Of a stretch of 64,000 nucleotides of DNA, positions 3,578-59,089 are shown piece by piece (the first letter of the stretch is position 1; every line of letters begins with the position of its first letter). The notes beneath the pieces were generated by a model. It saw nothing but the letters and a program-made list of their open reading frames with translations, ran no database searches and was not told the origin of the DNA. The DNA is taken from NCBI RefSeq assembly GCF_015223195.1, contig NZ_JADFUA010000009.1:62001-126000 (forward strand). The letters are read 5' to 3'. The position numbers and the translations under genes were made by a program. The stretch comes from Chitinilyticum piscinae. GTDB lineage: Bacteria > Pseudomonadota > Gammaproteobacteria > Burkholderiales > Chitinibacteraceae.

Positions 3578-5518
3578 ATGAAAATGTTCCGATTGGCCGC
3601 ACTGCCGGCGGCCCTGGCATTTGTCTGCGTAAGCGCCTTTGCTGCCGAATGGCAGTCCGGTACCGCCTACACTGCAGGCGCCCAGGTGAGCTACCAGGGA
3701 CAAACCTGGGAAGCCAAGTGGTGGACCCAGGGCGAAATCCCGGGCTCGCAGCAATACGGCGCCTGGAAGCTGGTTGGTGCAATCAGCCCCACCGCCACCC
3801 CGAGCGCAACCCCGACTCCGGCTCCGAGCGCCTGCTACCAAAACTGGAGCACGGACACGGCCTACAATGCCGCCACCCGCGTTACCTTCGGTGGCCGCAA
3901 CTACGAAGCCAAGTGGTGGACCAAGGGTGATGACCCGAGCAAGTCCGGCGAATGGGGTGTCTGGAAAGATCTCGGCGCCTGCGGCAACGTAACGCCGACC
4001 GCCACCCCGACACCGACTGCCACCCCGACACCGACTGCCACCCCGACGCCGACCGCTACCCCGACGCCGACCGCTACCCCGACGCCGACGCCGACCGCTA
4101 CCCCGACGCCGACCGCTACCCCGACGCCGACGGCAACCCCGACTCCGGTTGTTACTCCGACTCCTGGCGGCACCAGCACCCGCCAGGTTGGCTCCTACTT
4201 CACCCAGTGGGGTGTGTACGGCCGTAACTATCAGGTCAAGGACATCGACACCAGCGGCGCCGCTGCCAAGCTGACTTTCATCAACTACGCCTTCGGCAAC
4301 ATCTACCAGAAGAACGGCGGCTACGAGTGCGGCATGGTGAACAAGCTCGAGCCGGGCGCCACCAACCCGAACGATCCGCAAGCCGGCACCGGCGGCGACA
4401 GCTGGGCCGACTACCAGCGCGGCGTATCTGCCGCCCAATCCGTGGACGGCGTCGCCGATCTGTGGGGCTGGGAGAAGTGGGATGATCCGCGCAATGGCAA
4501 GGAAGGCCCGCTGAAGGGCAGCTTCAACCAGCTGAAAAAGCTGAAAGCCAAGTACCCGGATCTGAAGGTCTACATCTCGCTGGGCGGCTGGACCTGGTCC
4601 AAGTGGTTCTCCAAGGCCGCAGCAACCGATGCACTGCGCAAGCAACTGGTGGCTTCGTGTATCGACGTCTACATCAAGGGCAACCTGCCGTTTGACAATG
4701 GCTCGAACGCTGGCGGCCCGGGCTCTGCAGCCGGGGTATTCGACGGTATCGATATCGACTGGGAATTCCCGGGTGTAGTCGGTCAGCCGTACAACACCGT
4801 TTCGCCGGACGACAAGAAGAACTTCACGCTGCTGCTGAAGGAATTCCGCGACCAGCTTAACGCCATCGGCGCCAGCAACAACAAGCACTACGGCCTGACC
4901 GTTGCCATCGGCGCGGGCAAGGACAAGATCGAGATGACTGAAACCAGCGAGTACCACAAGCACCTCGACTGGATCAACGTCATGAACTACGACTACAACG
5001 GCGCTTGGGCAGCCACCGGCCCGACCGACTTCCAGTCGCACCTGTATGCTGATCCGAACAGCCCGCAGTATCTCGATCCCAAGACCGGCGGTCGCAGCGT
5101 GGTTTCCTGGTACAACACCAACGACGCCATCCAGCTGCTGCTCAAGGGCGGCGTTCCGGCCAACAAGCTGGTAGTCGGCATTCCGAAGTACGGTCGCGGC
5201 TGGACCGGCGTTGCAGCCGGCCCGAACGGCGACGGCCTGTACCAGAAGGCCGCAGCCGGTGCCAAGGGTACCTACGAAACCGGTATCGAGGACTACAAGG
5301 TGCTGAAGAATGCGCCGGGCAAGCTGTACTACCACCCGGTAACCAAACAGTCCTACAAGTTCGATGGCAACAACTGGTGGAGCTACGACACCCCGGCCGA
5401 CATCGCGCTCAAGGCACAATATGTGCGCGACAACCAGCTGGGTGGTCTGTTCAGCTGGTCGCTTGACGGTGACACGGCCGATGCCGAGCTGACCAAGGAA
5501 ATGGCCAAGGTCAAGTAA
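3578..5518 (+). CDS. Secreted GH18 chitinase A with two chitin-binding modules
   Basis: 646 residues. The start at 3578 is set by GAGGAA seven bases upstream and an immediate 22-residue signal peptide (MKMFRLAALPAALAF...AFA). Residues ~23-67 are a CBM5/12-type module (AKWWTQG). A second module (AKWWTKGDDPS) lies at ~86-134. A Thr/Pro linker spans ~135-198. The GH18 catalytic barrel runs from ~202 to the end: YFTQWGVYGR (strand 1), SLGGWTWSKWF (SxGG motif), DGIDIDWEFPG at 389-399 with the acid/base Glu at 396, NVMNYDYNGAW, and GGLFSWSLDGD at the end. The retaining enzyme should cut chitin outside the cell. It is a close paralogue of the gene at 12099, sharing signal peptide and leader sequence. 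Several Asp/Asn- and Gly-rich inserts distinguish it from that copy. Confidence 0.95.
   Translation: MKMFRLAALPAALAFVCVSAFAAEWQSGTAYTAGAQVSYQGQTWEAKWWTQGEIPGSQQYGAWKLVGAISPTATPSATPTPAPSACYQNWSTDTAYNAATRVTFGGRNYEAKWWTKGDDPSKSGEWGVWKDLGACGNVTPTATPTPTATPTPTATPTPTATPTPTATPTPTPTATPTPTATPTPTATPTPVVTPTPGGTSTRQVGSYFTQWGVYGRNYQVKDIDTSGAAAKLTFINYAFGNIYQKNGGYECGMVNKLEPGATNPNDPQAGTGGDSWADYQRGVSAAQSVDGVADLWGWEKWDDPRNGKEGPLKGSFNQLKKLKAKYPDLKVYISLGGWTWSKWFSKAAATDALRKQLVASCIDVYIKGNLPFDNGSNAGGPGSAAGVFDGIDIDWEFPGVVGQPYNTVSPDDKKNFTLLLKEFRDQLNAIGASNNKHYGLTVAIGAGKDKIEMTETSEYHKHLDWINVMNYDYNGAWAATGPTDFQSHLYADPNSPQYLDPKTGGRSVVSWYNTNDAIQLLLKGGVPANKLVVGIPKYGRGWTGVAAGPNGDGLYQKAAAGAKGTYETGIEDYKVLKNAPGKLYYHPVTKQSYKFDGNNWWSYDTPADIALKAQYVRDNQLGGLFSWSLDGDTADAELTKEMAKVK
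3995..4155 (+). repeat. ACCGCTACCCCGACGCCG-type tandem repeat (Thr/Pro linker)
   Basis: Array of 12-18-nt in-frame units coding for TATPTP. Neighbouring units are nearly identical in nucleotide sequence, which suggests recent slippage or recombination. Confidence 0.85.
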
Positions 5519-12098: not shown

Positions 12099-14117
12099 AT
12101 GAAGATGTTCCGTCTGGCCGCTCTGCCGGCCGCTCTGGCGTTCGTTTGCGTGACTGCTTTCGCTGCCGAATGGCAAGAAGGCAACACCTACTCTGCAGGC
12201 ACTCAGGTCACCTACCAAGGCAAGACCTATCAGGCTCTGGTTACTCACACCGCGTATGCGGGCACCGGCTGGAATCCGGCCGCCAGCCCCACTCTGTGGA
12301 AGGAAGTAAGTGGTTCCGTTACCGCCACTCCGGCTCCGACTGCTACTCCGGCTCCGACTGCTACTCCGGCTCCGACTGCTACTCCGGCTCCGACTGCTAC
12401 TCCGGCTCCGACTGCCACTCCGACTCCGGCCGCAGGTTGCTACCAGGCCTGGAACGCCAGCACCGCTTATGCCGGTGGCGCACAAGTCACCTTCAACGGC
12501 CGCAACTATCAGGCCAAGTGGTGGACTCAGGGCGATGACCCGACGAAGTCCGGCGAATGGGGTGTCTGGAAGGATCTGGGCGCATGCGGTGCCACTCCGA
12601 CTCCGGCTCCGACCGCTACTCCGGCTCCGACTGCTACTCCGGCTCCGACTGCTACTCCGGCTCCGACTGCTACTCCGGCTCCGACTGCTACTCCGGCTCC
12701 GACTGCTACTCCGGCTCCGACTGCTACTCCGGCTCCGACTGCCACCCCGCTTCCGACTAACGTTCCCGGCGGCGAAGTTCCGGCCCCGACCAGCATGCAG
12801 GTTGGCTCCTACTTCACCCAGTGGGGCGTTTACGGTCGTGACTACCAAGTAGCCGACATCATCAGCAATGGCTCCGCCAACGACCTGACTTTCATCAACT
12901 ACGCATTCGGCAACATCTACGAAAAGAATGGCGGCTATGAGTGCGGCATCGTCAACAAGCTGGAACCGGGCGCAACCAACCCGGATGCTGCCGGCGCTGG
13001 CACCGGTGGTGACGCTTGGGCAGACTTCGGCCTGACCGCCAAGCGCCGCGTCGACCCGTCCGACACCATCAAGTGGGATGACAAGCTGGCTGGTAACTTC
13101 CGTGAATTCCAGGCCTACAAGAAGAAATATCCGAACACCAAGCTGTTCATCTCGCTGGGTGGCTGGACCTGGTCCAAGTGGTTCTCCAAGGCCGCCGCAA
13201 CTGACGCCCTGCGCAAACAGCTGGTTTCCTCGTGTATCGATATCTATATCAAGGGTAACCTGCCGTCCGTCGATGGCCGTGGTGGTGCCGGCGCAGCGCC
13301 GAACATCTTTGACGGTATCGATATCGACTGGGAATTCCCGGGCGTGATTGGCCAGCCGTACAACACTGTTTCTCCGGCTGACAAGCAAAACTTCACCCTG
13401 CTGCTCGCAGAATTCCGCAAGCAACTGGATGCACTGAGCGCAGCCAACAACAAGCAGTACTACCTGACCGTGGCGATCGGTGTCGGCAAGGACAAGATCG
13501 ACATGACCGAGCCGGCTGCGTACAGCAAGTACCTGAACTGGATCAACATGATGTCGTACGACTTCAACGGTGCCTGGGCAGCTCAAGGCCCGACCGACTT
13601 CCAGTCGCACCTGTATGCTGACCCGTCCAACCCGACTTACAAGTGCTCCGGCAAGCCGACAGACACCTGCTACGTCGACAAGAATGGCAACAACCGCAGC
13701 CTGGTTTCCTACTACAACGTCAACGATGCAGTTAACCAACTGCTTGACGCCGGTGTGAATCCGAAGAAACTGGTTGTTGGCATCCCGTTCTATGGCCGTG
13801 GCTGGACTGGTGTGACCAATGCCAACAATGGCCTGTACCAGACTGCAACTGGCGCTGCTCGTGGCACCTATGAGGCAGGCATCGAGGACTACAAGGTACT
13901 GAAGAATGCAGCGGGCACGGTTTACACCCACCCGACTACCAAGCAGTCCTGGAAGTTTGATGGCTCGACCTTCTGGTCCTATGACACTCCGGAAGTGATC
14001 CAGACCAAGATCGACTACACCAAGGCCAAGGGTCTGGGCGGCATGTTCAGCTGGTCGCTCGACGGCGATGACAGCACCGCCACCCTGATGAAGGCCATGG
14101 GCAAGGTCAAGCAGTAA
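12099..14117 (+). CDS. Secreted GH18 chitinase B with two different chitin-binding modules
   Basis: 672 residues. GAGGA precedes the ATG, and a 22-residue signal peptide nearly identical to chitinase A follows. Residues ~23-68 form a module of a different subtype (TYSAGTQVTYQGKTYQAL, then GWNPAASPTLW). A linker spans ~73-112, and a second CBM5/12 module with AKWWTQGDDPT lies at ~113-163. A longer PTATPA linker spans ~165-218. The GH18 domain starts near 230 with YFTQWGVYGR. It has SLGGWTWSKWF and DGIDIDWEFPG at 405-415 with catalytic Glu412. It also has NMMSYDFNGAW and GMFSWSLDGD. A Cys-containing insert (about YKCSGKPTDTCYVDK) is absent from chitinase A. The first module resembles the C-terminal module of the PilV-like pilin at 58037. 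Confidence 0.95.
   Translation: MKMFRLAALPAALAFVCVTAFAAEWQEGNTYSAGTQVTYQGKTYQALVTHTAYAGTGWNPAASPTLWKEVSGSVTATPAPTATPAPTATPAPTATPAPTATPAPTATPTPAAGCYQAWNASTAYAGGAQVTFNGRNYQAKWWTQGDDPTKSGEWGVWKDLGACGATPTPAPTATPAPTATPAPTATPAPTATPAPTATPAPTATPAPTATPAPTATPLPTNVPGGEVPAPTSMQVGSYFTQWGVYGRDYQVADIISNGSANDLTFINYAFGNIYEKNGGYECGIVNKLEPGATNPDAAGAGTGGDAWADFGLTAKRRVDPSDTIKWDDKLAGNFREFQAYKKKYPNTKLFISLGGWTWSKWFSKAAATDALRKQLVSSCIDIYIKGNLPSVDGRGGAGAAPNIFDGIDIDWEFPGVIGQPYNTVSPADKQNFTLLLAEFRKQLDALSAANNKQYYLTVAIGVGKDKIDMTEPAAYSKYLNWINMMSYDFNGAWAAQGPTDFQSHLYADPSNPTYKCSGKPTDTCYVDKNGNNRSLVSYYNVNDAVNQLLDAGVNPKKLVVGIPFYGRGWTGVTNANNGLYQTATGAARGTYEAGIEDYKVLKNAAGTVYTHPTTKQSWKFDGSTFWSYDTPEVIQTKIDYTKAKGLGGMFSWSLDGDDSTATLMKAMGKVKQ
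12322..12432 (+). repeat. 18-nt tandem repeat (CCGACTGCTACTCCGGCT), array 1
   Basis: About five near-identical in-frame 18-nt units coding for PTATPA, between the two chitin-binding modules of chitinase B. Confidence 0.9.
12598..12750 (+). repeat. 18-nt tandem repeat (CCGACTGCTACTCCGGCT), array 2
   Basis: About eight near-identical in-frame copies of the unit in array 1, between the second binding module and the catalytic domain. The unit is shared by the two arrays of this gene but differs from the TATPTP unit of chitinase A. Confidence 0.9.
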
Positions 14118-14822: not shown

Positions 14823-16001
14823 ATGCGTTATCACGTCAAAGCCATTGCTAGTGGCAGCATGCAGGAGCTCGTTGTCGAAGCCGGCAACAAGCAGGATCTG
14901 CGTGAACAGTTGCGCCAGAAAGGCATGCAGCTGGTTTCTGCTCGCCCGGCCAAAACGCTACGACTGAGCTTCAGCAAGAAAGGCTTTCAGCTCTCACTGT
15001 TCACTCAGGAGCTGATTGCGCTGCTGGAGGCAGGCCTGACACTGATCGAAGCCGTAGAAACACTGAAAGACAAGGCAGCAGCCGATGAACATGGCGCAGT
15101 ACTCAGCCGGCTGATCGAGAGCCTGTACGAGGGCCTTCCCCTTTCCAAAGTCATGGGCAAGATGCCGGAACATTTCCCCCCGCTATATATCGCCACCGTT
15201 GGCTCGGCGGAGAAAACCGGTCACCTTGCCGACGCTTTGAAGCGCTATCACCATTACGAAACACGTTTGCAGGGTGTTAAAAAGAAGATCATTTCCGCAC
15301 TGGTCTACCCGCTCGTCATCATCACGATTGGCGGCGCCATCATGCTCTTCCTGCTTTTCTATGTGATTCCCAAATTCAGCCAGATCTATGCCTCGATGCG
15401 AAATCTGCCTTTTGCCGCGGAAGTGATGCTGTGGTGGGGCGAGCTGGTACATCAGCATGGCCTTTGGCTCTTTCTGGGTATCATTCTGAGCATCACCATG
15501 GCTGTAGTATTGCTGCGAACTCCGGCTATCCGCGAAAAAATCAAACAAGCATTCTGGCGCCTGCCCAAGGTGGCGCAGTATGAGCGACTATTTGCCCTGA
15601 CCCGTTTTTACCGCACGGTGGGTTTGCTGCTCTCTGGTGGCCTGTCAATTGTTGCCGCAATGGAACTGGCGGCACAACTGCTACCCGGCTCGATGAAGCT
15701 GGCGCTTAATCAAGCGATTACTGACATTAAAACCGGGCAGTCCGTTTCAGCCACGCTGCCACGCTATGGACTCACCACACCGGTTTCCGAACGCTTGCTG
15801 CGTGTTGGCGAACAAAGTGGCGAACTTGCGACCATGAGCGAGCGTGCAGCGCAGTTCTGCGATGAGGAATTGGACCGCGCCATCGAAATGTTCACCCGTT
15901 TGTTCGAGCCACTGCTGATGCTGGTCATCGGGGTATTAATCGGCACGATCGTATTTCTGCTGTACATGCCGATTTTTGAGCTGGCAGGCAATATGCAATG
16001 A
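14823..16001 (+). CDS. gspF: Type II secretion inner-membrane platform protein, GspF-like
   Basis: 392 residues, the usual GspF/PilC length. It has two copies of the T2SF helical domain: LSLFTQELIALLEAGLTLIEA near residue 57-77 and FYRTVGLLLSGGLSIVAAMEL near 262-282. Each is followed by membrane helices (~155-180, ~205-225 and ~360-385). GSAEKTGHL and VGEQSGEL are the repeated GE-type boxes of the family. It is the polytopic platform on which the ATPase acts. It starts 17 bases after gspG and its stop overlaps the GspE start by four bases (ATGA). Confidence 0.92.
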   Translation: MRYHVKAIASGSMQELVVEAGNKQDLREQLRQKGMQLVSARPAKTLRLSFSKKGFQLSLFTQELIALLEAGLTLIEAVETLKDKAAADEHGAVLSRLIESLYEGLPLSKVMGKMPEHFPPLYIATVGSAEKTGHLADALKRYHHYETRLQGVKKKIISALVYPLVIITIGGAIMLFLLFYVIPKFSQIYASMRNLPFAAEVMLWWGELVHQHGLWLFLGIILSITMAVVLLRTPAIREKIKQAFWRLPKVAQYERLFALTRFYRTVGLLLSGGLSIVAAMELAAQLLPGSMKLALNQAITDIKTGQSVSATLPRYGLTTPVSERLLRVGEQSGELATMSERAAQFCDEELDRAIEMFTRLFEPLLMLVIGVLIGTIVFLLYMPIFELAGNMQ

Positions 16002-17656
16002 GCACACTTACTCTGGATTTTATCCTGGCATTGCGCCAGAACGCAGAAGGACGAGACCTTCCTCCGCTGATCAGCCAGCTGCTCGGGCTGGATGCCAAAG
16101 GCTATATCGCCGAGGTTTCTGCGCTGCTAGGCATGCCCGGTTTTCTCCGTGCAGAACTGGATTCGCTGAAAATCCGCTACGACCTGCTCAACTTCACCGA
16201 TGCCGTTGCAAGACGCTGTGTGGTAGCCGAACTGCCCCAGGGTGGATTCCTGCTGATTGTCGCCGATCCTTTTGATCCGCTGATCCGTAACTGGGCCATG
16301 CAAAATCTGGGCGTACCATTCAGCATGGCCTTTGCATTCCAGGACGATTTGCAGGCCTATTTTGCCGAACTGGAAACATCGCATCGGGCAATGGCTCAGC
16401 TTGCCGTCGGAGAAAGCTCGGAAAGCAATACCGACGGCATTCCGGAAATCTCGCTGGCATCGTTGTCCAAAGACAGCAACCCGGTTGTAAAGCTGGTGAA
16501 TTCGACGCTTTACGATGCACTGAAGTCCAAAGCCTCGGATATCCACCTGGAAAGCACGCCACAAGGACTGACGATCAAATACCGGATCGATGGTGTCATC
16601 CTAGGTGCTGGCGGTGCCAGTGGCATCGAAACCGCAGAACAGGTGATATCCCGGTTGAAGGTGCTTGCTGATCTGGACATTTCGGAGCATCGCGTCCCGC
16701 AGGATGGCCGCTTCAAAGTGCTACTGAATGGTCGTGAAGTGGACTTTCGTGTGTCGATCATGCCATCGATTCATGGCGAGGATGCGGTGCTGCGGATTCT
16801 GGACAAACAAAGCAGCAACAGTTCTTTCAAGTCGCTGCAACTCGATATCCTCGGGCATGAAGCATCCACCATGGAAGCCATCCGCTCGCTGGCTCGCGAA
16901 CCCTATGGGTTGCTCCTGGTTACCGGTCCGACCGGCTCCGGCAAATCCACGACGCTTTATGCCACCCTATCCGAGATCAATACGGGTGATGAGAAAATCA
17001 TCACAATCGAAGATCCAGTCGAATATCAGCTTCCCGGGATTCTGCAGATTCCGGTCAATGACAAGAAAGGCCTGAGTTTCGCCCGCGGATTGCGTTCGAT
17101 TTTGCGCCATGACCCGGACAAGATCTTGGTCGGCGAAATCCGCGATGGCGAAACAGCGAACATTGCCGTTCAGGCGGCCCTGACGGGTCACTTGGTATTG
17201 ACTTCCGTACACGCCAACAATGTATTTTCGGTACTTGACCGTTTCATGCACATGGGCGTCGAACCGAATTCATTTGTTGATGCACTGATCGGCGCCGTGG
17301 CCCAGCGCCTCATTCGCAAAGTCTGCCCGCATTGCGTTACCGATGATTACCCGACCAATGAACTACTGACACAATCAGGCCTTAGCCCGCAGGATGTCAT
17401 CGGCTGGACATTCCGCAAGGGGGTCGGCTGCCCGCAATGCCGGGATACCGGTTACCTCGGCCGCAAGGCAATTGCCGAGGTCCTGCGCTTGAATGACGAC
17501 TTGCGTGAGGCCATTGCCGGACGCGCACCGGTTGTACAGATCAAGCAGCTGGCCAAGGAATCCGGTTTCCAGTCAATCCGCCAGATCGCCCTGATGTCCG
17601 TTGCCCGTGGCGAGACCACCTTGCAGGAAGTAAACCGTGTCACATTTGTTGATTAG
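15998..17656 (+). CDS. gspE: Type II secretion / pilus assembly ATPase, GspE-like
   Basis: 552 residues. The N-terminal MshEN/GspE-type domain covers ~1-140. The ATPase domain has the Walker A GPTGSGKST at 310-318. It also has the Asp box TIEDPVEY, the Walker B region KILVGEIRDGETA and the His box LTGHLVLTSVHANN. A zinc-binding pair of cysteine motifs (CPHC, then CPQC) lies near 445-490. It is a cytoplasmic hexameric motor that drives pseudopilus extension through GspF. There is no second retraction ATPase in the cluster, which fits secretion rather than a twitching pilus. Confidence 0.93.
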   Translation: MSTLTLDFILALRQNAEGRDLPPLISQLLGLDAKGYIAEVSALLGMPGFLRAELDSLKIRYDLLNFTDAVARRCVVAELPQGGFLLIVADPFDPLIRNWAMQNLGVPFSMAFAFQDDLQAYFAELETSHRAMAQLAVGESSESNTDGIPEISLASLSKDSNPVVKLVNSTLYDALKSKASDIHLESTPQGLTIKYRIDGVILGAGGASGIETAEQVISRLKVLADLDISEHRVPQDGRFKVLLNGREVDFRVSIMPSIHGEDAVLRILDKQSSNSSFKSLQLDILGHEASTMEAIRSLAREPYGLLLVTGPTGSGKSTTLYATLSEINTGDEKIITIEDPVEYQLPGILQIPVNDKKGLSFARGLRSILRHDPDKILVGEIRDGETANIAVQAALTGHLVLTSVHANNVFSVLDRFMHMGVEPNSFVDALIGAVAQRLIRKVCPHCVTDDYPTNELLTQSGLSPQDVIGWTFRKGVGCPQCRDTGYLGRKAIAEVLRLNDDLREAIAGRAPVVQIKQLAKESGFQSIRQIALMSVARGETTLQEVNRVTFVD

Positions 17657-18431
17657 ACACACCATCTGGCTCAATGGCCAGGAATGCTACATGGTCAGCT
17701 ATCCTCTGGGACAGCGCACGCCATGTTGGCAGGGTGACCAGCTCATCGACCATGAAGGCGCCATGCTGCTGACCCAGCTGCAGGACCTGGTCAACTCGGC
17801 CCCTCGGGGAAAGTTTGGCCAGGACAACCTGACCTTTGTACTTGGCGCCCCCATGGTTCGACATACCCTGCTGCCGTGGCAGGACAGCCTGCATAGCCAA
17901 GATGACTGGAACAGCTACGCAGCCGCCCTGTTTGCGCAGCAATATGGTTCGGATATCAGCAACTGGCGCATCCAGAGCTCGGAGGCGGGTTACGGTCAGC
18001 CCCGACTGGCAGTTGCCATCGATGAAGTGCTTTACCAAACAGCGCTGGATGTGGCTCGCAATGGTGGCCTGCGCCTGCAAGGCGTCGAACCCCTGCTTGC
18101 CCACACGGTTAATCACTATTTCCGGCAAATTCGTGACCGGGACTTCGCTCTGCTTATTCTGGGCAAATTCTACGCACACGTTGCGTTTTGCCGTGATGAT
18201 CAATGGCAATCGGTTTCCTGCCAGCCCTTTATTCATCCGCAGCATCACGACCCTGCCGCCCTGCAGGCCCTATTACGTGACACGGCCATTCTGTCCGGGC
18301 AAACCGTCCCCGATACGGTCTATCTCAGCTCGACCGAAACGGACGCGGCCATGGTCGACCAGCACTCGGATCAGATGATCTGGCTGGGCCACCCCTTGCC
18401 TGCGTTTGCTCGGCAACAGGTGACGCGATGA
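17637..18431 (+). CDS. PilM/MshI/GspL-like assembly protein
   Basis: 264 residues from a GTG at 17637, overlapping the end of gspE by 20 bases. No strong motif is present. The fold pattern (alternating strands, a long middle helix, and VDE/IDE-type acidic turns such as LAVAIDEVLYQTALDVA) and the position directly before PilN- and PilO-like proteins suggest an actin-like ASKHA cytoplasmic protein. This is the role of PilM or the cytoplasmic half of GspL, linking the ATPase to the membrane ring. The assignment rests mainly on gene order. Confidence 0.6.
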   Translation: MSHLLIRHTIWLNGQECYMVSYPLGQRTPCWQGDQLIDHEGAMLLTQLQDLVNSAPRGKFGQDNLTFVLGAPMVRHTLLPWQDSLHSQDDWNSYAAALFAQQYGSDISNWRIQSSEAGYGQPRLAVAIDEVLYQTALDVARNGGLRLQGVEPLLAHTVNHYFRQIRDRDFALLILGKFYAHVAFCRDDQWQSVSCQPFIHPQHHDPAALQALLRDTAILSGQTVPDTVYLSSTETDAAMVDQHSDQMIWLGHPLPAFARQQVTR

Positions 18432-19090
18432 AGCCTCTTTACCTGGATTTTCATCGTTCACGTCAGGTTGTTCCCTGGCTGGGTCTGTTACTGATCGCCG
18501 CTGGAGTGGTGGCGCTGCTCAGCGTCATGACACAACTGGATGTTGTCGCCCAGCAACGCATCCAGCTGCAACAGGACGAAGACAATATTGCCCTGCAACT
18601 GCGACGCACTCAGACTCAGCAGCAGAATCAGCAGGCATCCTCCCCGCAGAATATGAAGCAGGTCGAATTGCGTACTGCACAGCTTTATTCTCCCAGGCCG
18701 TTACTGGATGATCTCGGCGCGCACTGGGCATCTGATGTGGCCTTCCTGCGCCTGGATCTGGACAGCACAGCCCGCAATGCCAAACTGGAACTCGAAGCCC
18801 GCGACCTGAATCAGCTGCTGCTGTTTATCGACCGGCTCGAGGCCACACCAGGCATCGACCTCGTGACACTGGCGCGTAGCGGCGCCAAACCGAATGATCC
18901 ATTCCGGCCTGTGCAGGCATCGCTGGAAGTCAATTGGCGCAAAGCGTCTGAATTTGCGAACACTCACAACCCCTTTGCCAGCGCAGCATCGGCTGCATCC
19001 AAAGCATCGGCGGCATCCCTAGCCCTGCGGGCAACTCCGGCAGCGGGCAGCAAACCCGCTCAGGGCTCCAGCGCGCGAGGCGGCCGATGA
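18428..19090 (+). CDS. PilN-like inner-membrane assembly protein
   Basis: 220 residues, overlapping the previous gene by four bases. The short cytoplasmic N terminus (MKPLYLDFHRSR) resembles the PilN segment that binds PilM. One membrane helix (~14-36) follows, then a Gln-rich coiled coil (~40-80) and a ferredoxin-like domain to ~175. The tail after ~180 is Ala/Ser-rich (repeats of AASAASKASAAS). It should sit in the periplasm as half of a PilN/PilO or GspL/GspM dimer. Confidence 0.65.
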   Translation: MKPLYLDFHRSRQVVPWLGLLLIAAGVVALLSVMTQLDVVAQQRIQLQQDEDNIALQLRRTQTQQQNQQASSPQNMKQVELRTAQLYSPRPLLDDLGAHWASDVAFLRLDLDSTARNAKLELEARDLNQLLLFIDRLEATPGIDLVTLARSGAKPNDPFRPVQASLEVNWRKASEFANTHNPFASAASAASKASAASLALRATPAAGSKPAQGSSARGGR

Positions 19091-19617
19091 ACAAGTCACA
19101 ACTGCAATGGTATCTGCGTCAGCTACCGCGTTATGGCGGTTTGCTGGCACTGGTCGGCCTCGGCCTGCTCGTGCTCTCCGGGATTCTGTATCTGCAGAAA
19201 TTGCAGCCTGCCCAGCTCTCGCTGCAGACTCGCGAGCTGGATCTGGAGCGCCAGTTCAACCGGCTGCGCAGCATGCCAGTAGCAAGTGCTGCCGCACCAG
19301 CACTCGGAGAAATGCTGCTCAACCAGCCGGAAACCTACACGTTCTTCCTGCGACGACTCAATCACCTGAATGAACAATACCGGATTGTTCCCGTACAGAT
19401 GGATTACAAGACCAGCCTGGAACAGGATGGTCACTTTGTGCGCTACAGCATCCAGTTCGGCGCCACGACCACCTACATGCAACTCGACCTCTGGGCTCGA
19501 ACACTGGAAGCTATCCCCGGCGTACGCATCGAATCCATCAACCTGAGCCGCAGCCAGATTGGGGATGAACAGCTTACCGCACAGATTCAGCTCTCCTATC
19601 TGACGGAGGTGCGCTGA
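19087..19617 (+). CDS. PilO/GspM-like inner-membrane assembly protein
   Basis: 176 residues, overlapping the PilN-like gene by four bases. One N-terminal membrane helix (~18-36), a coiled-coil stretch (~40-65) and a C-terminal ferredoxin-like domain with HFVRYSIQFGATTTYMQLDLWARTLEAIPG, a pattern seen in PilO and GspM. It probably pairs with the preceding protein and sets the ring between platform and secretin. Identification rests on topology, size and order. Confidence 0.65.
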   Translation: MNKSQLQWYLRQLPRYGGLLALVGLGLLVLSGILYLQKLQPAQLSLQTRELDLERQFNRLRSMPVASAAAPALGEMLLNQPETYTFFLRRLNHLNEQYRIVPVQMDYKTSLEQDGHFVRYSIQFGATTTYMQLDLWARTLEAIPGVRIESINLSRSQIGDEQLTAQIQLSYLTEVR

Positions 19618-19619
19618 TC

Positions 19620-20153
19620 ATGATGTCAAAACCGCTGCTGGCCGCATTGCTCGTGACCGCCGGACTAACCATCTTTGCCTGGTGGCAGGATAAGGAAGAA
19701 GCAGCCCCGGAGCTCGATGCGCCTGCACGCCCGGCCCGCACCGCAGCGAGTTCGGCAAGCCATGCCAGTATGGCAAGTGCGGCACAGCACAGCACAATAG
19801 CCAGTCGAGCCAGTGCTGCAAGCTCTGTCATTGTGAACCTTTTCCCCCGGCAGAACTGGGCGCCACCGCCAACACCGACTCCAGTTCCACCACCACCACC
19901 ACCACCGACCGCGCCACCACTTCCCTTCGTAATAGTGGCTAGCTGGCACGATAGCGGGATTGACCAGTATTTCGTTGAAGCCCAAGGCCAGCAGATCTTG
20001 CTGTGCAATACCTGTAACAGTATGGGGCGGATTCACCCGGGTGAAACCTTGCTAGGCGTCTATCGGCTCGACAAGCTCGAGCGCAACATGATCACCTTCA
20101 CCTATTTGCCTTTGAATCAGCAGCAACAGCTGCCCACAGGAGGAACGCCATGA
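19620..20153 (+). CDS. PilP/MshK/GspC-like periplasmic link protein
   Basis: 177 residues. GGAGG lies upstream of a double ATG (19620, 19623). One N-terminal membrane helix (~5-22) is followed by an Ala/Ser-rich spacer (~40-68) and a proline run (PTPTPVPPPPPPPTAPPLP, ~85-103). The C-terminal domain (~104-170) has two cysteines (LLCNTCNS) and ends GVYRLDKLERNMITFTYLP. A short beta-rich domain after a Pro-rich spacer is what PilP and GspC use to contact the secretin. It is the last inner-membrane gene before the secretin. No close named family is recognised. Confidence 0.55.
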   Translation: MMSKPLLAALLVTAGLTIFAWWQDKEEAAPELDAPARPARTAASSASHASMASAAQHSTIASRASAASSVIVNLFPRQNWAPPPTPTPVPPPPPPPTAPPLPFVIVASWHDSGIDQYFVEAQGQQILLCNTCNSMGRIHPGETLLGVYRLDKLERNMITFTYLPLNQQQQLPTGGTP

Positions 20154-22132
20154 AGCGTGCCCTGATTTATTCGATGCTCAGCGTAAGCATCCTCGCCGGC
20201 TGTGCTGCCGATATGGCGCGCAAGGAGGCCGAAAGCCTGATCGTACAGGGAGATCCTGAAAGCGGCCTGCGCGTACTGAAGGATAAGATCGCCAGCTATC
20301 CGGAAGATATTCCGCTACGAACCGCCTATGCGTCGCAACTGAACAATTACCTGGCCCGGCTGCAGGCCGAGGGTGATGCCGCGCGTCTGGCCGGCAATAC
20401 GGCGGTTGCCATCAGCAAATACCAGCTGATCCTCTCCTGGGATCCGAACAATACCCGGGCCCGCGAAAGCGTGCGCATGATCGAACTTGGCGTCCGGCAT
20501 AACTCCATGCTGGCCTATGCCAATTCGGTCAAGGACACCCAACCCAAGGAGGCACTGGGAATAGCCCAGCAAATTCTCAAAGATGATCCAGGCAACAAAC
20601 AGGCCCGTACACTCTACTACTACGCTGAAGGAAAACTCAGCAAGCAAGCACTCAAGCCGACACTGGCCGCCAATCTGCAAAGCCCCATTTCGCTGCAGTT
20701 CCGCGATCAGCCGCTGATGAGCGTGTTCGAGATCATTTCCCGCGCCGCCAATGTCAACTTCATCTTTGACAAGGATGTGCCGCCCAACCTCAAGGCCACC
20801 ATCTTTGCCCGCAATACCACGGTTGAGGATGTCATCAATCTGTTGTTGACCACCAACCAGCTTGATCGCAAGATCCTCAACGAAAACACGATCCTCATTT
20901 TCCCGAAGCGGCCGGACAAGGACCGGGATTACAAGGATCTGACCATGCGCACCTTCTACCTGAACAACGCCGACCCCAAGCAGGTTCTGGCGATGATCAA
21001 GCAGATGATCAAGACACGGGATGTCTACATCGACGAACGCCTCAACATGCTGGTGATGCGCGATACGCCTGAAGCCATTGCGGTCGCGGAACGCCTGATT
21101 GCAGCCCAGGATCTGCCGATGCCGGAAGTTGAGCTCGATGTGCAAATCCTTGAAGTCAACAGCTCAGACGTACTCAACTTGGGTATCGAATATCCAGGAT
21201 CGGTATCTGCGACTGTGTTTGACCCTAACTACGGTACATCTGGCCCTATAAAGGACTTGCTCGCAGCCGGCAAAGTGATGCTTAACCATATCAATAACAT
21301 CAACAGCAGTGATGTATTGGTCAATCTCGGAAGCCCGACGGTTACAGCCAACCTCCAACAGGTCAGCAATAACGGCAATATTCTGGCCAACCCCAAGATC
21401 CGCGTGAAAAACAAGGACAAGGCCAAGGTGGTCATTGGTGAACGCGTACCAGTAGTAACCACCACCAACTCCAACGGGGTGGTGACCGAGAACATCAATT
21501 ATCAGGATATCGGCCTGACGCTGAATGTTGAACCGGCGCTGTCGCAGGATACCGATGTCAGCGTCAAGCTGAGCCTGGAGGTCTCGAACATCACCAAGCA
21601 GATCGTGACCAAGAGTGGCCTGGTGGCGTACCAGATCGGCACCCGACGCGCAGAAACCAATATGTCGGTACGTGATGGCGAGACACAGGTACTGGCAGGG
21701 CTGCTGAACAAGGTGGACAAGAACGATGGCTCGGGGCTGCCCTTCCTGAGCTCGATTCCGCTGCTTGACCGGATTGCCGGCACCAAGAAAACCCAGAATG
21801 ACCGCACCGAAATCGTCATGCTGATCACCCCGCGTCTCGTCAAGACACTGAATCCGCCGCCGTCGCACATCATGGAGTTTGAGAGCGGCACCGAAGGAGG
21901 CATCAATACCGATGCCCTCCGGCTGCGCTCCGCATCCACCATCAGCATCTCGTCACAGGGCGGGCAAAGTAATTATGTCCCGCCGGCTCCGCCCCCTGCT
22001 CCGGCACCGGTTCAGGCTGCAACACCCGCGCCGGCGACACAGAGCATACCGGCCAATGCGGAACCGCAGCATCCGGCACCGACTCCCACACCTGAAAACA
22101 AGGGCTATGGTGGTGGCATGGGACGGCGCTAA
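20150..22132 (+). CDS. gspD: Outer-membrane secretin, GspD/MshL-like lipoprotein
   Basis: 660 residues, overlapping the previous gene by four bases. A lipoprotein signal peptide ends LAGC (lipid on Cys18), so the secretin may reach the outer membrane without a separate pilotin. Residues ~25-165 form TPR-like helices (SGLRVLKDKIASYPEDIPLR; AVAISKYQLILSWDPNN), unusual for a plain GspD. An N0/STN-like domain (~175-255) and an N1 domain with FYLNNADPKQVLAMIKQM follow. The secretin barrel domain spans ~340-575: LANPKIRVKNKDKAKV, VQ/YQDIGLTLNVEPAL, and the end box TEIVMLITPRLV. The tail is Pro/Ala-rich with a Gly-rich end. It forms the exit pore. Confidence 0.9.
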   Translation: MKRALIYSMLSVSILAGCAADMARKEAESLIVQGDPESGLRVLKDKIASYPEDIPLRTAYASQLNNYLARLQAEGDAARLAGNTAVAISKYQLILSWDPNNTRARESVRMIELGVRHNSMLAYANSVKDTQPKEALGIAQQILKDDPGNKQARTLYYYAEGKLSKQALKPTLAANLQSPISLQFRDQPLMSVFEIISRAANVNFIFDKDVPPNLKATIFARNTTVEDVINLLLTTNQLDRKILNENTILIFPKRPDKDRDYKDLTMRTFYLNNADPKQVLAMIKQMIKTRDVYIDERLNMLVMRDTPEAIAVAERLIAAQDLPMPEVELDVQILEVNSSDVLNLGIEYPGSVSATVFDPNYGTSGPIKDLLAAGKVMLNHINNINSSDVLVNLGSPTVTANLQQVSNNGNILANPKIRVKNKDKAKVVIGERVPVVTTTNSNGVVTENINYQDIGLTLNVEPALSQDTDVSVKLSLEVSNITKQIVTKSGLVAYQIGTRRAETNMSVRDGETQVLAGLLNKVDKNDGSGLPFLSSIPLLDRIAGTKKTQNDRTEIVMLITPRLVKTLNPPPSHIMEFESGTEGGINTDALRLRSASTISISSQGGQSNYVPPAPPPAPAPVQAATPAPATQSIPANAEPQHPAPTPTPENKGYGGGMGRR

Positions 22133-22135
22133 ACC

Positions 22136-22618
22136 GTGAGCATGATGGCAAATCAACGCGGCTTCACGCTGATCGAGCTGATGGTAACCCTCACCATTCT
22201 GGCCGTACTCGCCAGCGTGGCGCTGCCCTTGTCGCAGATTGCGGCCACCCGCAACCGCGAGGATCAGCTGCGGCAGGCTCTGGCTCAGATACGCACCGGC
22301 ATCGATGACTACAAGAAAGCTGCCGATGAAGGCCGTGTGCGCAAAAACCTCGACGATACCGGCTACCCGCCAACGCTGCAGACACTGGTTGACGGCGTGA
22401 AGGATGCCAAGGACCCGTCCGGCAAAATGATCTACTTCCTGCGTCGCATTCCACGTGACCCCTTCTGCGACTGCCCGCAGCAGAGCAATGCAGAAACCTG
22501 GGGCTTGCGCAGCTATGCCAGCGCGCCCGATTCGCCGGAAGCAGGCAAGGATGTATTCGACGTGTATTCCAACTCGCGCGCCATCGGTCTGAACGGCGTG
22601 CCGTATCGCGAATGGTAA
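22136..22618 (+). CDS. Pseudopilin-like protein 1
   Basis: 160 residues from GTG 22136; ATGs at 22142 and 22145 are equally possible starts. The prepilin site RGFTLIELMVTLTILAVLASVALP has Glu at +5. The globular part resembles GspG in its helix and loop (IDDYKKAADEGRVRKN, YPPTLQTLVDGV) and carries a CDC motif (DPFCDCPQ). It is likely a minor pseudopilin at the tip of the filament. Its stop overlaps the next start. Confidence 0.8.
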   Translation: MSMMANQRGFTLIELMVTLTILAVLASVALPLSQIAATRNREDQLRQALAQIRTGIDDYKKAADEGRVRKNLDDTGYPPTLQTLVDGVKDAKDPSGKMIYFLRRIPRDPFCDCPQQSNAETWGLRSYASAPDSPEAGKDVFDVYSNSRAIGLNGVPYREW

Positions 22619-54909: not shown

Positions 54910-55329
54910 ATGACTACCCGCAGGCACTCCGGCTTTACCCTGATCGAACTTATGATTGTTGTGGCAATCATTGGCATTCTTGCGGCGATTGCGCTGCCAT
55001 TGTTCGGCCAGTACATGAACAAGGCCCGCCGCAGCGATGCAACCGCCTCGATCTCAGGCATCCAGCAAGCACAGGAACGCTGGCGTGCAAACAATGTCTC
55101 TTATACCAGTACGTTTACTGATCTTGGCCTGAGCAGCACCAGCAACGAGGGTTTCTATACCTTCGCCATCACTGGCACATCCGGAACCGGCTATACAGTG
55201 ACGGCGACAGCACAAGGCAAGCAGCTTGCAGACACCAACTGCAAAACCCTGATTCTGACGGTGTCCGGCGGCAACGCCACCAAAACATCCAAGAACAGCA
55301 GTAACGCAACAAGCACTGGCTGCTGGTAA
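54910..55329 (+). CDS. Type IV pilin (PilE-like)
   Basis: 139 residues from the ATG at 54910 (an ATG 30 bases earlier only lengthens the leader). The prepilin site is HSGFTLIELMIVVAIIGILAAIALPLFGQYMNKARRSDA, the standard pilin helix with Glu at +5. The globular part has a C-terminal disulfide pair (DTNCKTL and TGCW), as in major pilins and PilE-like minor pilins. Thr/Ser-rich loops are frequent. A terminator follows, so it is transcribed apart from the minor pilins. It may be the major or a minor subunit. Confidence 0.88.
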   Translation: MTTRRHSGFTLIELMIVVAIIGILAAIALPLFGQYMNKARRSDATASISGIQQAQERWRANNVSYTSTFTDLGLSSTSNEGFYTFAITGTSGTGYTVTATAQGKQLADTNCKTLILTVSGGNATKTSKNSSNATSTGCW

Positions 55330-55351: not shown

Positions 55352-55379
55352 AACCTCACCTGCTGGTGAGGTTTTTTTT
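55352..55379 (+). terminator. Terminator of the pilin gene
   Basis: Stem AACCTCACC / GGTGAGGTT with loop TGCT and a run of eight T. Confidence 0.9.
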
Positions 55380-55518: not shown

Positions 55519-56067
55519 ATGCTTTTTTTACAAAAACGACAGACTGGCTTCACGCTCATCGAGCTTATGCTGGTTGTTGCACTGATTGGCATTATTCTGG
55601 CAATTGCCGTTCCCAACTTCACCGAGTGGTATCAACGCAAGAAATTGGAAGGCATCGCCAATGACTTTGCAGCCCTGATCCAGAACGCAAGAATCGAAGC
55701 TGTACGCCGCAACAGCAGCACCTTTCTGATCACCACCCGGAGCAACGACAGTAGCTGGAGCTTGCGTGCGGTGACCTCAACCACCTGCGCGGAAGGCTCC
55801 GCCAGCTGTGAATTGAGCCGGATTACTCCTGCCCTGTATCCCGAATATTTGCTGACCAGCCTTAGCAGCGACTTTGCCGCTGGAGCAACCGAAATCAATC
55901 CGGTTGATAGCCTGTTCAAGTTCTCTTCCGGGGCAACTGCGGCACAGACGGTTGTTTTTGGTTTTGCCAGCTATCGGCTGCAGGTAAAAGTCACCAGCAC
56001 GGGGCTCACCTCAATCTGCACCCCCGCCTCCACACCAACCATGCCGGGGTACAGCACATGCTCCTGA
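55519..56067 (+). CDS. Minor pilin, GspH/FimT-like
   Basis: 182 residues from the ATG at 55519 with AAGGG upstream. Prepilin site TGFTLIELMLVVALIGIILAIAVPNF, then the FimT/GspH pattern (ANDFAALIQNARIEAVRRNSSTFLI) and a cysteine pair in TSTTCAEGSASCELSR. FimT/FimU-type subunits help start pilus assembly and, in some bacteria, take up DNA. It overlaps the next gene by ten bases and opens the minor-pilin operon. Confidence 0.88.
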   Translation: MLFLQKRQTGFTLIELMLVVALIGIILAIAVPNFTEWYQRKKLEGIANDFAALIQNARIEAVRRNSSTFLITTRSNDSSWSLRAVTSTTCAEGSASCELSRITPALYPEYLLTSLSSDFAAGATEINPVDSLFKFSSGATAAQTVVFGFASYRLQVKVTSTGLTSICTPASTPTMPGYSTCS

Positions 56068-56723
56068 AATACTACGCACATCAGTCTGGCCTGACCCTGA
56101 TCGAAGTACTTGTCTCGACTGCCGTCGCCACCCTGCTATTAACTGCTGCGGCAACAGTCGGCTTTTCCAGCCTGTCCCTGAACAGAAACACCATCAGCTC
56201 AGCAAATAGCCAGTACGAACTGCAAAGCGTCATGAATATCGTGACCAAAGAGCTTCGCAGAGCCGGTTACTCCAAGAATCAGGAGAATGCCAAAACCGCA
56301 GGGGGGCTGCGCAATATCTGGTTTAGTGGGGGAACCGGCACAACTGATCACACCTGTGCTGTTTTCCGGTACGACCGAACTCCTGGCTCCCCCTCTCAAC
56401 TTGAACCGCCGGGGAATGGCAGCACGGAAACGACAGATGTACGCGGAATCCGGCTGGCATCCGGCAAGCTAGAACTACTGACGAGTGCAACAGCCATTAA
56501 CGGTGGATGTTCAGTCACGGGAACCTGGGAGCCCATTTCCGGAAGTGCATTTACCATCACCAGCTTCAAACTGAGCTACCCGGCGCCTCCTAGCGGGGTA
56601 CTTATGGATGGCAGCAAGATCGTCAATGAAGTAACCGTAACAATCGCTGCCACAGGTAAAAACGGTGCTACACAAAGCCTGAGTGAAGTGGTCCAGCTCC
56701 GTAACCAGCCTTACCTCAATTAA
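56058..56723 (+). CDS. Minor pilin, PilW-like
   Basis: 221 residues. The prepilin site QSGLTLIEVLVSTAVATLLLTAAATVGF is followed by SLSLNRNTISSANSQYELQSVMNIVTKELRRAGYSK, the standard PilW start with the '..LRRAGY' block. A cysteine pair (TCAVFRY and GGCSVTG) is likely disulfide-bonded. It should be part of the tip complex. Confidence 0.88.
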   Translation: MLLKYYAHQSGLTLIEVLVSTAVATLLLTAAATVGFSSLSLNRNTISSANSQYELQSVMNIVTKELRRAGYSKNQENAKTAGGLRNIWFSGGTGTTDHTCAVFRYDRTPGSPSQLEPPGNGSTETTDVRGIRLASGKLELLTSATAINGGCSVTGTWEPISGSAFTITSFKLSYPAPPSGVLMDGSKIVNEVTVTIAATGKNGATQSLSEVVQLRNQPYLN

Positions 56724-56737
56724 TGGGATGTGAACCG

Positions 56738-58027
56738 ATGAAATCTACTTCTTATCCATCCCAGAAGAAACATGCTGGTGTAGCTGCGTTGACCGTCACA
56801 GTGTTGATCACACTGATTGCCCTGGTTGCAGCTGTCTATGCCACCAAAAACAGCATGCTTTCGCAGAAAAACGCTGCAAATGCAGCGCAATCCCTGATGG
56901 CGCAGCAAGCGGCAGAGGAAGGCGCACTCGCCTTCGAGGAACAGATTCGTCTCGACCTTGCGAGCATTGCCGCCGGAGGTAGCGGGGGAGTCATTCTGGA
57001 AAAAGACACCGGTAGCTCATCGGCGGGCTCGGGCTGCCTGCCGGGTAGCGGCACCCTTCCATACCGGTTTACCTCGACCTATCGCAAAGGGACGTCTGGC
57101 GCTGATGCACTGATTTTTGCTGATGCCGCCAATTTCGTTCGTCCAGCCGAAGTAACAGCGATGGTCAGGGATGTAGCGAACACAGATCTTGGCCTGAGCT
57201 ATCAAGTGAAAGGCAAGATTGTCGGTCGGGTTATCAATATATACAGCGTCGGAAATGCTGCTGGCGGCGCGTCTGCGATCGTACGCCGTCAGATCAATGT
57301 CTCAGGAGGGCTTTCACTGGGCAATAGCGCCTTAACGGTGGGTAATTACTACGACTCGACTCAGGCCAACCACATTACCGCAAATGCAGGAGACCCCCTG
57401 GCGCAATGTGCAGTACTGTACGGCGAGAGCTACTCCTCGACAGGAGCTGCCGATCACAAGTGCTACTCGGAAGGAAACATCTTCGGCGCCGACTGCACCC
57501 CGACTCAGAGCGCCGGATTGCAGAACAACCTGTTCTTCAACACCTTTGGCAAATCCAAAGCCGAGCTCAAGGCCAGCCTGCTTCCTTCGCAGATCATCTC
57601 CAGCTGCAATGGCACCATTGCGGGGATTCCGGATAAGTATCTCTGGATTGAAGGTGATGCGACCAACTGTAAAATCACGGGACCAAACAGCGTGGTCATT
57701 GTGAATGGCAATGTGCGGGGCGGCTTGGAGGTAAACGGTTTCATTTATGCAAGCAACGCCTATCTTGATGGCGCGACGAATATCAACGGCAGTGTAACCA
57801 TTGAAAATTCTGTCGATGTCGAGCCACTTGGCTGGCCCATCACGCATATCGGCGGCGCGCTAGCAGGAACCACAAGTGCCAATGGCAAAGCCGATTCTTC
57901 CGATCCCAATCGCAAGGCCACACATGCGGCTCAAGTTTCTTTCAAGATTACCTACAAGAAATACACCGGCAACCCTGATGGTGCTGCGAGTACAAACAGT
58001 AGTCACGGCTCATGGATCGACTTCTAG
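56738..58027 (+). CDS. Minor pilin, PilX-like with enlarged C-terminal domain
   Basis: 429 residues from the ATG at 56738; an in-frame ATG lies 15 bases earlier. PilX-type proteins are normally ~160-200 residues. A hydrophobic helix (AGVAALTVTVLITLIALVAAVY) follows a Ser/Lys-rich leader; the usual GFTLIE motif is replaced by HAGVAAL, as in PilX. Then comes KNAANAAQSLMAQQAAEEGALAFEEQIR, the PilX helix. The extra ~250 residues are rich in short beta strands (SVVIVNGNVRGGLEVNGFIYASNAYLDGATNINGSVTIENSVDV) that look like a beta-helix. Several cysteines are present. It may be part of the filament tip or adhesion complex. Confidence 0.78.
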   Translation: MKSTSYPSQKKHAGVAALTVTVLITLIALVAAVYATKNSMLSQKNAANAAQSLMAQQAAEEGALAFEEQIRLDLASIAAGGSGGVILEKDTGSSSAGSGCLPGSGTLPYRFTSTYRKGTSGADALIFADAANFVRPAEVTAMVRDVANTDLGLSYQVKGKIVGRVINIYSVGNAAGGASAIVRRQINVSGGLSLGNSALTVGNYYDSTQANHITANAGDPLAQCAVLYGESYSSTGAADHKCYSEGNIFGADCTPTQSAGLQNNLFFNTFGKSKAELKASLLPSQIISSCNGTIAGIPDKYLWIEGDATNCKITGPNSVVIVNGNVRGGLEVNGFIYASNAYLDGATNINGSVTIENSVDVEPLGWPITHIGGALAGTTSANGKADSSDPNRKATHAAQVSFKITYKKYTGNPDGAASTNSSHGSWIDF

Positions 58028-58036
58028 GGAAAAACG

Positions 58037-59023
58037 ATGAAAAACACCAAGGGTTTCAGTCTGCTTGAAGTATTGATCGCTGTAGTTCTACTCGCGCTCT
58101 CGGCTCTGTTCTTGGCAAAACTGTCAGGCATCGCCCAGAAGGGAACCAGCCAGTCCCAAGAGCGGCAATTTGCCTCCCGGCTCGCCGAAGGCATCATGGA
58201 AGATCTGCGCCAGAACGCCCGTGACAAGACAGCTCCGGCCGCGGGCATGGTCATCAATGGCGTTACGCTGGAAGCCGGTGCAGCACCGGTTACCTTTACC
58301 GGCAGCCTCAATGGCCAGACAGCCGCCTATACCGTCAATATAATTTTCCCCTCGCCCATGCCGAGCTGGAGTACCAACAACTCACAAATCCGGACACAGG
58401 TGGAGGTCTACTGGCAGCGCTCCGATGCCAAGGATGCGAATGACAAGGAAAAAGTACTACTGGTCAGTACCATTCAGGTACCGGTTGTTCCTCCCAGTCT
58501 GGCCACAGCCCCGCCCTTGCCGGGCGGGCTGGAAACCATCTGCGGCGTAAACTGGAACAATAGCAAATGCTATGTACAGGGTACTTATCGCCGACATGGC
58601 GACGACCTCTACATGTGCAAGGCGGTCGGGGGCTGCCCCAAGGATAACGCAAACAATCCACCGGCCCGCCCGGACAAATGGATGCTGTACGATGCCTGCC
58701 CTGACGGCAGTCATGGTGGCGGGGGCGGCAATGAAACGGCAGGTACCATCGACTGCGCATTGGTTTCCGATGCAGTGCCACCTACGGGCACCCCAACGGG
58801 AACGCCTACTGGAATGCCTACTGGAACGCCTACTGGAACACCCACTTCGGCGCCAACATCTACTCCAGTTACACCTGCAGAATGGACGAATAGGAAATAC
58901 CTGAACGGCGATAAAGTTACATTTGGTGGTTTCACTTACGAGTGCAAGAAAGCCACTTGTGGCCCATATGCCGATGCGAATTGGAACCCCTCTGTTGTTC
59001 ACTCAGAGTGGAGCAAGCTTTAA
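58037..59023 (+). CDS. PilV-like minor pilin fused to chitin-binding-like modules
   Basis: 328 residues. The prepilin site KGFSLLEVLIAVVLLALSALFLAKLSGIAQKG and following helix (ASRLAEGIMEDLRQNAR) are those of PilV, which is normally ~150-190 residues. After ~155 the protein is unlike PilV. Residues ~168-221 form a Cys-rich module (YVQGTYRRHGDDLYMCKA, then PDKWMLYDAC). Residues 249-276 are a linker of TPTG repeats. Residues ~280-328 form a module with EWTNRKYLNGDKVTFGGFTYEC...WNPSVVHSEWSKL. That module lines up with the first chitin-binding module of chitinase B (EW, Y, G, VT, G, TY, WNP, W in register). PilV is a pilus-tip subunit, so I infer a pilus-borne chitin-binding adhesin. Binding has not been shown. 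Confidence 0.82.
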   Translation: MKNTKGFSLLEVLIAVVLLALSALFLAKLSGIAQKGTSQSQERQFASRLAEGIMEDLRQNARDKTAPAAGMVINGVTLEAGAAPVTFTGSLNGQTAAYTVNIIFPSPMPSWSTNNSQIRTQVEVYWQRSDAKDANDKEKVLLVSTIQVPVVPPSLATAPPLPGGLETICGVNWNNSKCYVQGTYRRHGDDLYMCKAVGGCPKDNANNPPARPDKWMLYDACPDGSHGGGGGNETAGTIDCALVSDAVPPTGTPTGTPTGMPTGTPTGTPTSAPTSTPVTPAEWTNRKYLNGDKVTFGGFTYECKKATCGPYADANWNPSVVHSEWSKL

Positions 59024-59089
59024 ATTGTGAACTCTAGCAAGACTGCATGGAGCACCTGTTAGCCACTGCAGTCTTGCCCTCAATGCCCA

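Follow-up and report, generated by a model that had tools for sequence, protein, structure and literature searches.

The window, by which we mean the whole 64-kb stretch of Chitinilyticum piscinae DNA that was analysed, carries a cluster of pilin genes in the order pilE / fimT-pilW-pilX-pilV. The first of these (54910..55329, +) encodes a PilE/PilA-like pilin of 139 aa, which scores over the cut-off of TIGR02532 and reaches 60 bits with NF041775, below the cut-off. A pattern scan placed a terminator-like hairpin 3' of this gene (55352..55373, +), in a region that is not enriched compared with shuffled sequence. The FimT/GspH-like minor pilin gene follows at 55519..56067 (+), its start being chosen as the ATG that precedes the prepilin motif; queried from 55495, it gave 47.7 bits with TIGR01708, below the cut-off. 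The gene for a PilW/GspJ-like minor pilin (56058..56723, +) overlaps both of its neighbours and owes its name to position and to weak matches (NF007848, E 1.5e-10, below the cut-off). Next to it a large PilX-like minor pilin of 434 aa is encoded (56723..58027, +), assigned from PilX_N (15.4 bits, below the cut-off) and phmmer synteny; it has no NCBIfam match at E<=0.001, and its relatives occupy frames of 426-512 aa. These three minor pilin genes overlap or touch, and the last gene of the cluster, the pilV-like gene, starts 9 nt past the end of the PilX-like gene. Directly 3' of it there is an 11-bp inverted repeat (59037-59047 / 59067-59077; 59037..59077, +), seen by eye and absent from the pattern-scan list, which could be a terminator lacking a T run. 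Elsewhere in the window, at 14823-22618, lies a second filament or secretion operon with GspF/PilC-like, GspE/PilB-like, PilQ-like secretin and GspG-like pilin products. Four proteins of this operon have no NCBIfam match, and the prepilin domain model was the only one to reach its cut-off, with no equivalog or subfamily model doing so.

The pilV-like gene (58037..59023, +) is a genuine open reading frame with an ATG start, and its product of 328 aa begins MKNTKGFSLLE. A class III leader (residues 1-5, with the motif GFSLLE) and a pilin module (residues 6-150) are encoded by 58037..58486 (+). N_methyl (PF07963) covers residues 1-26 with 28.1 bits against a cut-off of 21.2, and TIGR02532 gives 21.3 bits against 16.3. 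The best NCBIfam match is TIGR02523 PilV at 40 bits, which is below its cut-off of 52.2, and the name PilV-like is therefore used in preference to PilV. Judged by these profiles the product is a type IV prepilin of the PilV/I type. The pilin module is followed by a Cys-rich module, here called module A (residues 168-223, with Cys at 169, 178, 194, 200 and 221; 58538..58705, +), by a short Gly/Asn stretch, by a Thr/Pro/Gly (TPTG) linker (residues 247-277; 58775..58867, +) and by a C-terminal module B (residues 278-328; 58868..59020, +). Repeat analysis resolves the linker into 12-nt tandem units, its DNA containing a 24-nt repeat in four copies at a spacing of 12 nt. The two modules and the linker lie where the first-pass annotation of this DNA had placed them. 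With an N-terminal pilin module and an extra domain that is not specific to pilus biology, the protein is a modular pilin as that term is defined in PMC8179133.

Module B is a divergent CBM5/12, as judged from its sequence, its predicted fold and the conservation of a binding Trp. Among its key residues are W283, Y288, Y301, C303, W316, P318 and W325. A search against the CBM5/12 family had been proposed at the outset, and PF02839 CBM_5_12 matched residues 285-325 with E 5.7e-4 at a sub-threshold 20.3 bits (gathering cut-off 26.2); a whole-genome search with the same model gave 23.1 bits, still below the threshold. Three chitinases with two CBM5/12 modules each are encoded in the window, one GH19 (1164-2930, -) and two GH18 (3374-5518, + and 12099-14117, +). 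The first-pass annotation had aligned module B with the first chitin-binding module of a chitinase B, and in BLASTP it does align with the first of the two CBMs in the GH18 protein at 12099-14117, with 17 of 46 residues identical (37%) and E 3e-6. With the corresponding CBM of the second GH18 protein there was no BLASTP alignment, and we have therefore taken 12099-14117 to be the chitinase meant. The likeness of the linker to the Thr/Pro linkers of the window chitinases is also borne out. That pilin and chitinases share a module holds at the level of the family and not as recent copying, the identity being 37%.

A profile was also made from 28 CBM5/12 modules, out of 30 fetched loci, in non-pilin ORFs of the same genome, of which only the three window proteins are confirmed chitinases. 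Run against 144 pilin-like ORFs, it matched module B with a domain i-E of 7.7e-4, and the best score against reversed sequences was 0.26. Chance or a misread alignment of module B is ruled out by this profile, by the reversed set and by the relatives described below. Sequence matches of module B in the PDB were 4ilv (E 0.006) and 1ed7 (E 0.017).

Structure prediction had been named beforehand as a test that could overturn the assignment, and it returned a CBM fold. The AlphaFold model of module B has a mean pLDDT of 71 and was built with an alignment to the six other CBMs of the window, those of the chitinases, and it is not neutral or independent in this respect. Its top Foldseek match is the chitin-binding domain of ChiA1, 1ED7 (E 0.013, probability 1.00), no E-value being as low as 0.001, and chitinases and chitin deacetylases make up most of the best 50 rows, the remainder including phage tail fibres and parts of injection systems. 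VIA-align gave Z 4.8 and an rmsd of 1.7 over 42 residues against 1ED7, tied with Z of about 5 and an rmsd of about 2.4 over 46 for deacetylase modules, values in a range (below 8) that can reflect a mere common arrangement. Module B is thus predicted to adopt the CBM5/12 fold.

In the sequence alignment with 1ed7, with ChiA1 numbering counted by hand from chain residue 1 as 655, W316 aligns with Trp687 and P318 with Pro689. Trp687 plays a major part in ligand binding by ChiA1, and of the core residues listed for that domain Y662, V668, Y675, C677 and W696 have identical counterparts in module B (PMC3701571). Three of its core aromatics (Y288, Y301, W325) and the surface W316 are identical to those of ChiA1, while core Tyr670 and Leu695 correspond to F296 and E324. 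W283 would be the counterpart of Trp656, by an extension made by hand one step past the printed alignment. Of four further putative binding residues in ChiA1 (PMC2265269) Pro689 alone is kept, and His681, Thr682 and Pro693 are replaced by T307, C308 and H322.

Module A is harder to place. An alignment of 15 modules, made from 15 of 18 extracted stretches (the remaining three were of another type), has invariant columns C2, G15, C27, C33 and W48 of the stretch. Strong matches (E<1e-8) to the profile built from it occur in 15 of the 43 family genomes, in frames of 218-479 aa, and all of them are the proteins of the alignment rows themselves; a weaker match (E 6.8e-4) was to L121, another PilV-like protein of G007. 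When 399 genomes of the order were searched, with up to 16 candidates scored per genome, five had a match at E<=0.001 and all five belong to the family, and so far module A has been seen in these pilins only. A PDB sequence search with it yielded nothing meaningful (best E 0.14), and a model from the single sequence reached a pLDDT of 55, too low to be of use.

The module A profile also matches module B of the same pilin (i-E 0.0027), and several CBM5 modules of the genome share with module A an outer pair of Cys that encloses the module; the KWWT tract of chitinase CBM5 modules is absent from module A. In profile-profile comparison with a CBM alignment of 29 rows, nine of them pilin modules, it gave Prob 89.5 and E 2e-6. 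Against the non-pilin CBM modules alone the values were Prob 3.85 and E 0.0035, and one of 200 column shuffles scored higher (131 against 16.5). A repeat gave Prob 15 with the full alignment and 27 with the core columns, at E of about 0.001; the shuffle outlier was not reproduced, and none of 200 and none of 300 shuffles was as high as the real score. The comparison with Cys-flanked CBM5 modules gave Prob 48 and E 1.8e-4 (0 of 300 shuffles as high), and that with a CBM73-like alignment Prob 21.5. With such weak values against the non-pilin modules (3.85 and 15-27) module A is not fully secured as a clear CBM5/12. These comparisons nevertheless suggest that it is probably a divergent relative of that family, a derivation that goes beyond the first-pass annotation, which had noted only a Cys-rich module.

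The same architecture recurs across the family, which had likewise not been part of the earlier claim. A search of the 43 family genomes with the 328-aa protein gave matches in 35, many of them pilins. N_methyl and TIGR02523 each match all 27 of the PilV-like proteins collected (E<=0.1), and CBM_5_12 matches 11 of the 27 at the same level, the best at 1.4e-24. At the PilX-PilV position, relatives in G016 and G007 score 67.7 and 66.6 bits with CBM5/12 against the cut-off of 26.2, and some CBMs of these pilins score as high as the CBMs of long, enzyme-sized frames. The PilV-like protein of G016 matches chitinase C modules in the PDB with E 3.6e-14 and 1ed7 with E 2.6e-12. A second group of PilVs has a Cys-containing module, and one protein of this group, from G004, matches 6z41 (E 1.2e-10), which we take to be the CBM73 of CjLPMO10A, and the chitin-binding protein CbpD (7sqx, E 7.7e-4). 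C. piscinae itself has another pilin of this kind, encoded on contig C4, whose CBM5/12-like C-terminal part scores 24.5 bits, under the cut-off, and a PilV-like protein of 700 aa on contig C11 (L114:718-2817), with a CBM73-like stretch (i-E 6.8e-5). A scan of the genome contigs gave only a 26% match in the pilin part (L032). Long PilV-like pilins of about 430-700 aa (L114-L117, L119) were also seen, some with CBM-like stretches; four of them (L114, L116, L117, L119) end, past a Thr/Pro linker, in a Cys-containing stretch that by eye is similar in all four.

The frequency of such pilins was estimated from the 144 distinct pilin-like ORFs, which were picked by motif from the fetched loci as closed frames, with L033-L063 left out; the set is non-random, as its loci were similar to the 328-aa protein or belonged to 40 long PilV frames among the matches listed. 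The profile of non-pilin CBM5/12 modules matches 18 of these ORFs (domain i-E <=0.02), in 15 of the 43 genomes, and would do so in 19 and 16 if a cut and hence excluded frame of G011 (L122, 4.9e-8) were added. Together with the module A and CBM73-like profiles the numbers rise to 35 of 144 ORFs and 27 of 43 genomes. The members of these two profiles match by construction, however, so that 18 and 15 are the independent counts. The three genomes that have no CBM5/12 match at all (G024-G026) yielded no pilin with a module, and neither did several CBM-rich genomes, in a sample to which long PilV frames contributed unevenly.

The C-terminal slot of PilV is filled in different ways among these genomes. 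It holds module A and a CBM5/12 in C. piscinae, G007 and G022, module A and a domain unrelated to module B in G011 of the same genus, module A alone in G008, G009, G023, G038 and seven g9 genomes (the context having been fetched for one of the seven, G032), and a CBM5/12 alone in G017-G021. Two CBM-type modules are present in the second of two tandem PilVs in G013 and G016, and in G037 the slot is empty. In the G011 protein (L004/L067) module A is kept and the unrelated domain, of about 100 aa, stands where module B would be. In the tandem pairs of G016 (L012/L075) and G013 (L022/L079) one gene ends module-free at a TPTP linker and its neighbour bears the two modules. On the best tree of 27 pilin domains (22 from the slot and five from the second group) the five labels require seven changes where the minimum is four; the branches with good support require as few as one change for each label, and long branches carry two of the rows. 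Far fewer changes would also fit such support, and the tree at most suggests that modules have been swapped repeatedly at the end of PilV.

Of the 16 other contexts fetched, 15 have a large PilX-like gene directly ahead of one or more PilV genes (the exception being L081); in L080 a PilX-like gene precedes PilV, but the PilV bears no module. The PilY1 of C. piscinae is located on contig C20, away from the cluster, and phmmer searches with it gave no match in the window and none in the 16 other contexts, which span 8-15 kb. Only L064 (the C20 locus itself), L082 and L083 gave matches, and the three PilVs near a PilY1 at these loci match none of the three module profiles. Since the cluster has no detectable PilY1, the best candidate for a tip adhesin in it is the modular PilV. 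Modular minor pilins of Streptococcus sanguinis have been proposed to act as tip effectors in place of PilY1 (PMC9934059, PMC8179133), and by analogy the PilV-like protein may be the adhesin of this cluster. A position at the pilus tip is what we infer from the PilV/I type of the minor pilin and from the fact that no PilY1 could be detected beside it in the cluster.

From the anatomy of the protein, its homology and predicted fold, its recurrence in relatives, the synteny and the PilT-family genes, the following model can be drawn. After cleavage, the prepilin would use its N-terminal helix to assemble with FimT, PilW and PilX of the same operon, and the Thr/Pro/Gly linker would keep the CBM5/12-type module clear of the fibre. 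In this position W316 could stack onto the GlcNAc rings of chitin. For want of a PilY1 in the cluster, the modular pilin would serve as the adhesin, at the tip or close to it, binding chitin and aiding attachment. The genome has four PilT-family ATPase genes over the cut-off, and retraction by PilT may draw the cell onto the chitin, where the chitinases act.

The modular architecture itself, as first observed, is confirmed, and the interpretation that had been put on it, of a pilus that binds chitin through a module shared with the enzymes of its digestion, is partly supported. We put at roughly 70% the probability that the gene encodes a minor type IV pilin of the PilV/I type which displays on the filament a well-supported module of the chitin-binding type and a probable second one, and which acts as an adhesin at or near the tip. 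CBM5/12 modules are able to bind polysaccharides other than chitin, and the pilin might instead bind the cell's own exopolysaccharide, peptidoglycan, chitosan or cellulose and so serve in aggregation or cell-cell contact. The phage tail-fibre and injection-system folds among the Foldseek matches would agree with this, as would the binding of chitosan and isolated EPS by M. xanthus PilA, with a surface Trp recognition site (PMC12691611), and the tie between type IV pili of cellulolytic bacteria and adhesion to cellulose (PMC13234629). Such a function is nevertheless unlikely when it is considered that the sequences and folds closest to module B are modules of chitinases and chitin-oligosaccharide deacetylases, that the sister modules match chitin-binding proteins, and that the genome has 41 CBM5/12 matches over the cut-off.

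To our knowledge there is no precedent for long Thr/Pro-linked CBMs on a pseudopilus, which speaks against a further explanation, that the cluster makes a secretion pseudopilus and not a pilus of its own, with the CBM guiding chitinases or remaining in the periplasm. The HIJK minor pilins are common to T4P and T2SS (PMC10191384) and weak GspI/GspH matches do occur in the cluster pilins; however the cluster includes a PilE/PilA-like pilin and PilV is the best NCBIfam match, and we regard this explanation as improbable. Still harder to credit is that the modules are non-binding structural remnants derived from CBMs, kept for stability through their Cys pairs or as spacers. W316 is retained in spite of the loss of several proposed contact residues from module B and the missing KWWT tract in module A, and the presence at the PilV end of clear CBM5/12 modules in relatives, and of another module type in the second group, would be difficult to account for if binding had not been selected.

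A chitin-binding adhesin being the reading that we prefer, it could be extended to the family as a whole. The minor-pilin cluster without PilY1 would then be a dedicated chitin-gripping machine, in which an exchangeable PilV slot has repeatedly taken up CBM5/12, CBM73-like and other domains as well as a Cys-rich chitin module found only in pilins, a new CBM-like family, so that tip specificity is swapped module-wise as it is in chitinases. This is put forward tentatively, as something rather less probable than its opposite.

Type IV pili help bacteria to colonise chitin, and we know of no case in which the chitin-binding part of a pilus is a recognisable chitin-binding module. If the proposal is true, a named module with a named Trp, common to secreted enzymes, is carried on a filament, and attachment to and digestion of a major biopolymer are tied to one fold. 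How a pilus locates and grips chitin could then be tested directly on a single domain and a single point mutation, and the recurrence in relatives offers a natural set of pilins with differing chitin-binding-type modules. Modular pilins themselves are already established and what appears to be new here is the chitin-binding-type module. Of the 264 modular pilin architectures reported in PMC8179133, PA14, lectin and carbohydrate-binding-like folds are named, with no CBM5/12 among the 15 commonest. The view that no PilV of this architecture had been described agrees with our literature searches, in which no title or abstract among the matches listed dealt with a pilin carrying CBM5/12 or CBM73, although the full set of 264 may list one.

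Several known systems resemble the one proposed here in part. The PilB (vWA) and PilC (lectin) of S. sanguinis likewise bear a linker-joined ligand-binding domain that is not pilus-specific on a minor pilin, and have an adhesin role with a predicted tip position, the role suggested for the present protein (PMC8179133, PMC9934059); they differ in that the modules here are CBM5/12-type, 6z41-matching and Cys-rich, in a family rich in chitinases. As in the PilC/PilY1 tip adhesins of diderm type IVa pili, a binding domain would be shown at the pilus tip, but PilY1 is a non-pilin and that of C. piscinae is encoded on a different contig, close to a PilV without modules. The ChiA1 domain, top in the Foldseek search and with Trp687 in the place of W316, is carried on an enzyme, and module B differs from it by a second Cys (C308) close to C303 and by having no counterparts of His681, Thr682 and Pro693. 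GbpA of Vibrio cholerae also links cell and chitin through a chitin-binding module, its fourth domain being a CBM73 that binds chitin (PMC12964348), but it is a secreted LPMO and not a pilin. The DNA-uptake type IV pilus of Vibrio binds chitin too and is needed for its colonisation under flow; no pilin CBM is mentioned in the part of its description that we draw on, whereas in the C. piscinae pilus the likely binding part is a module of the chitinase type.
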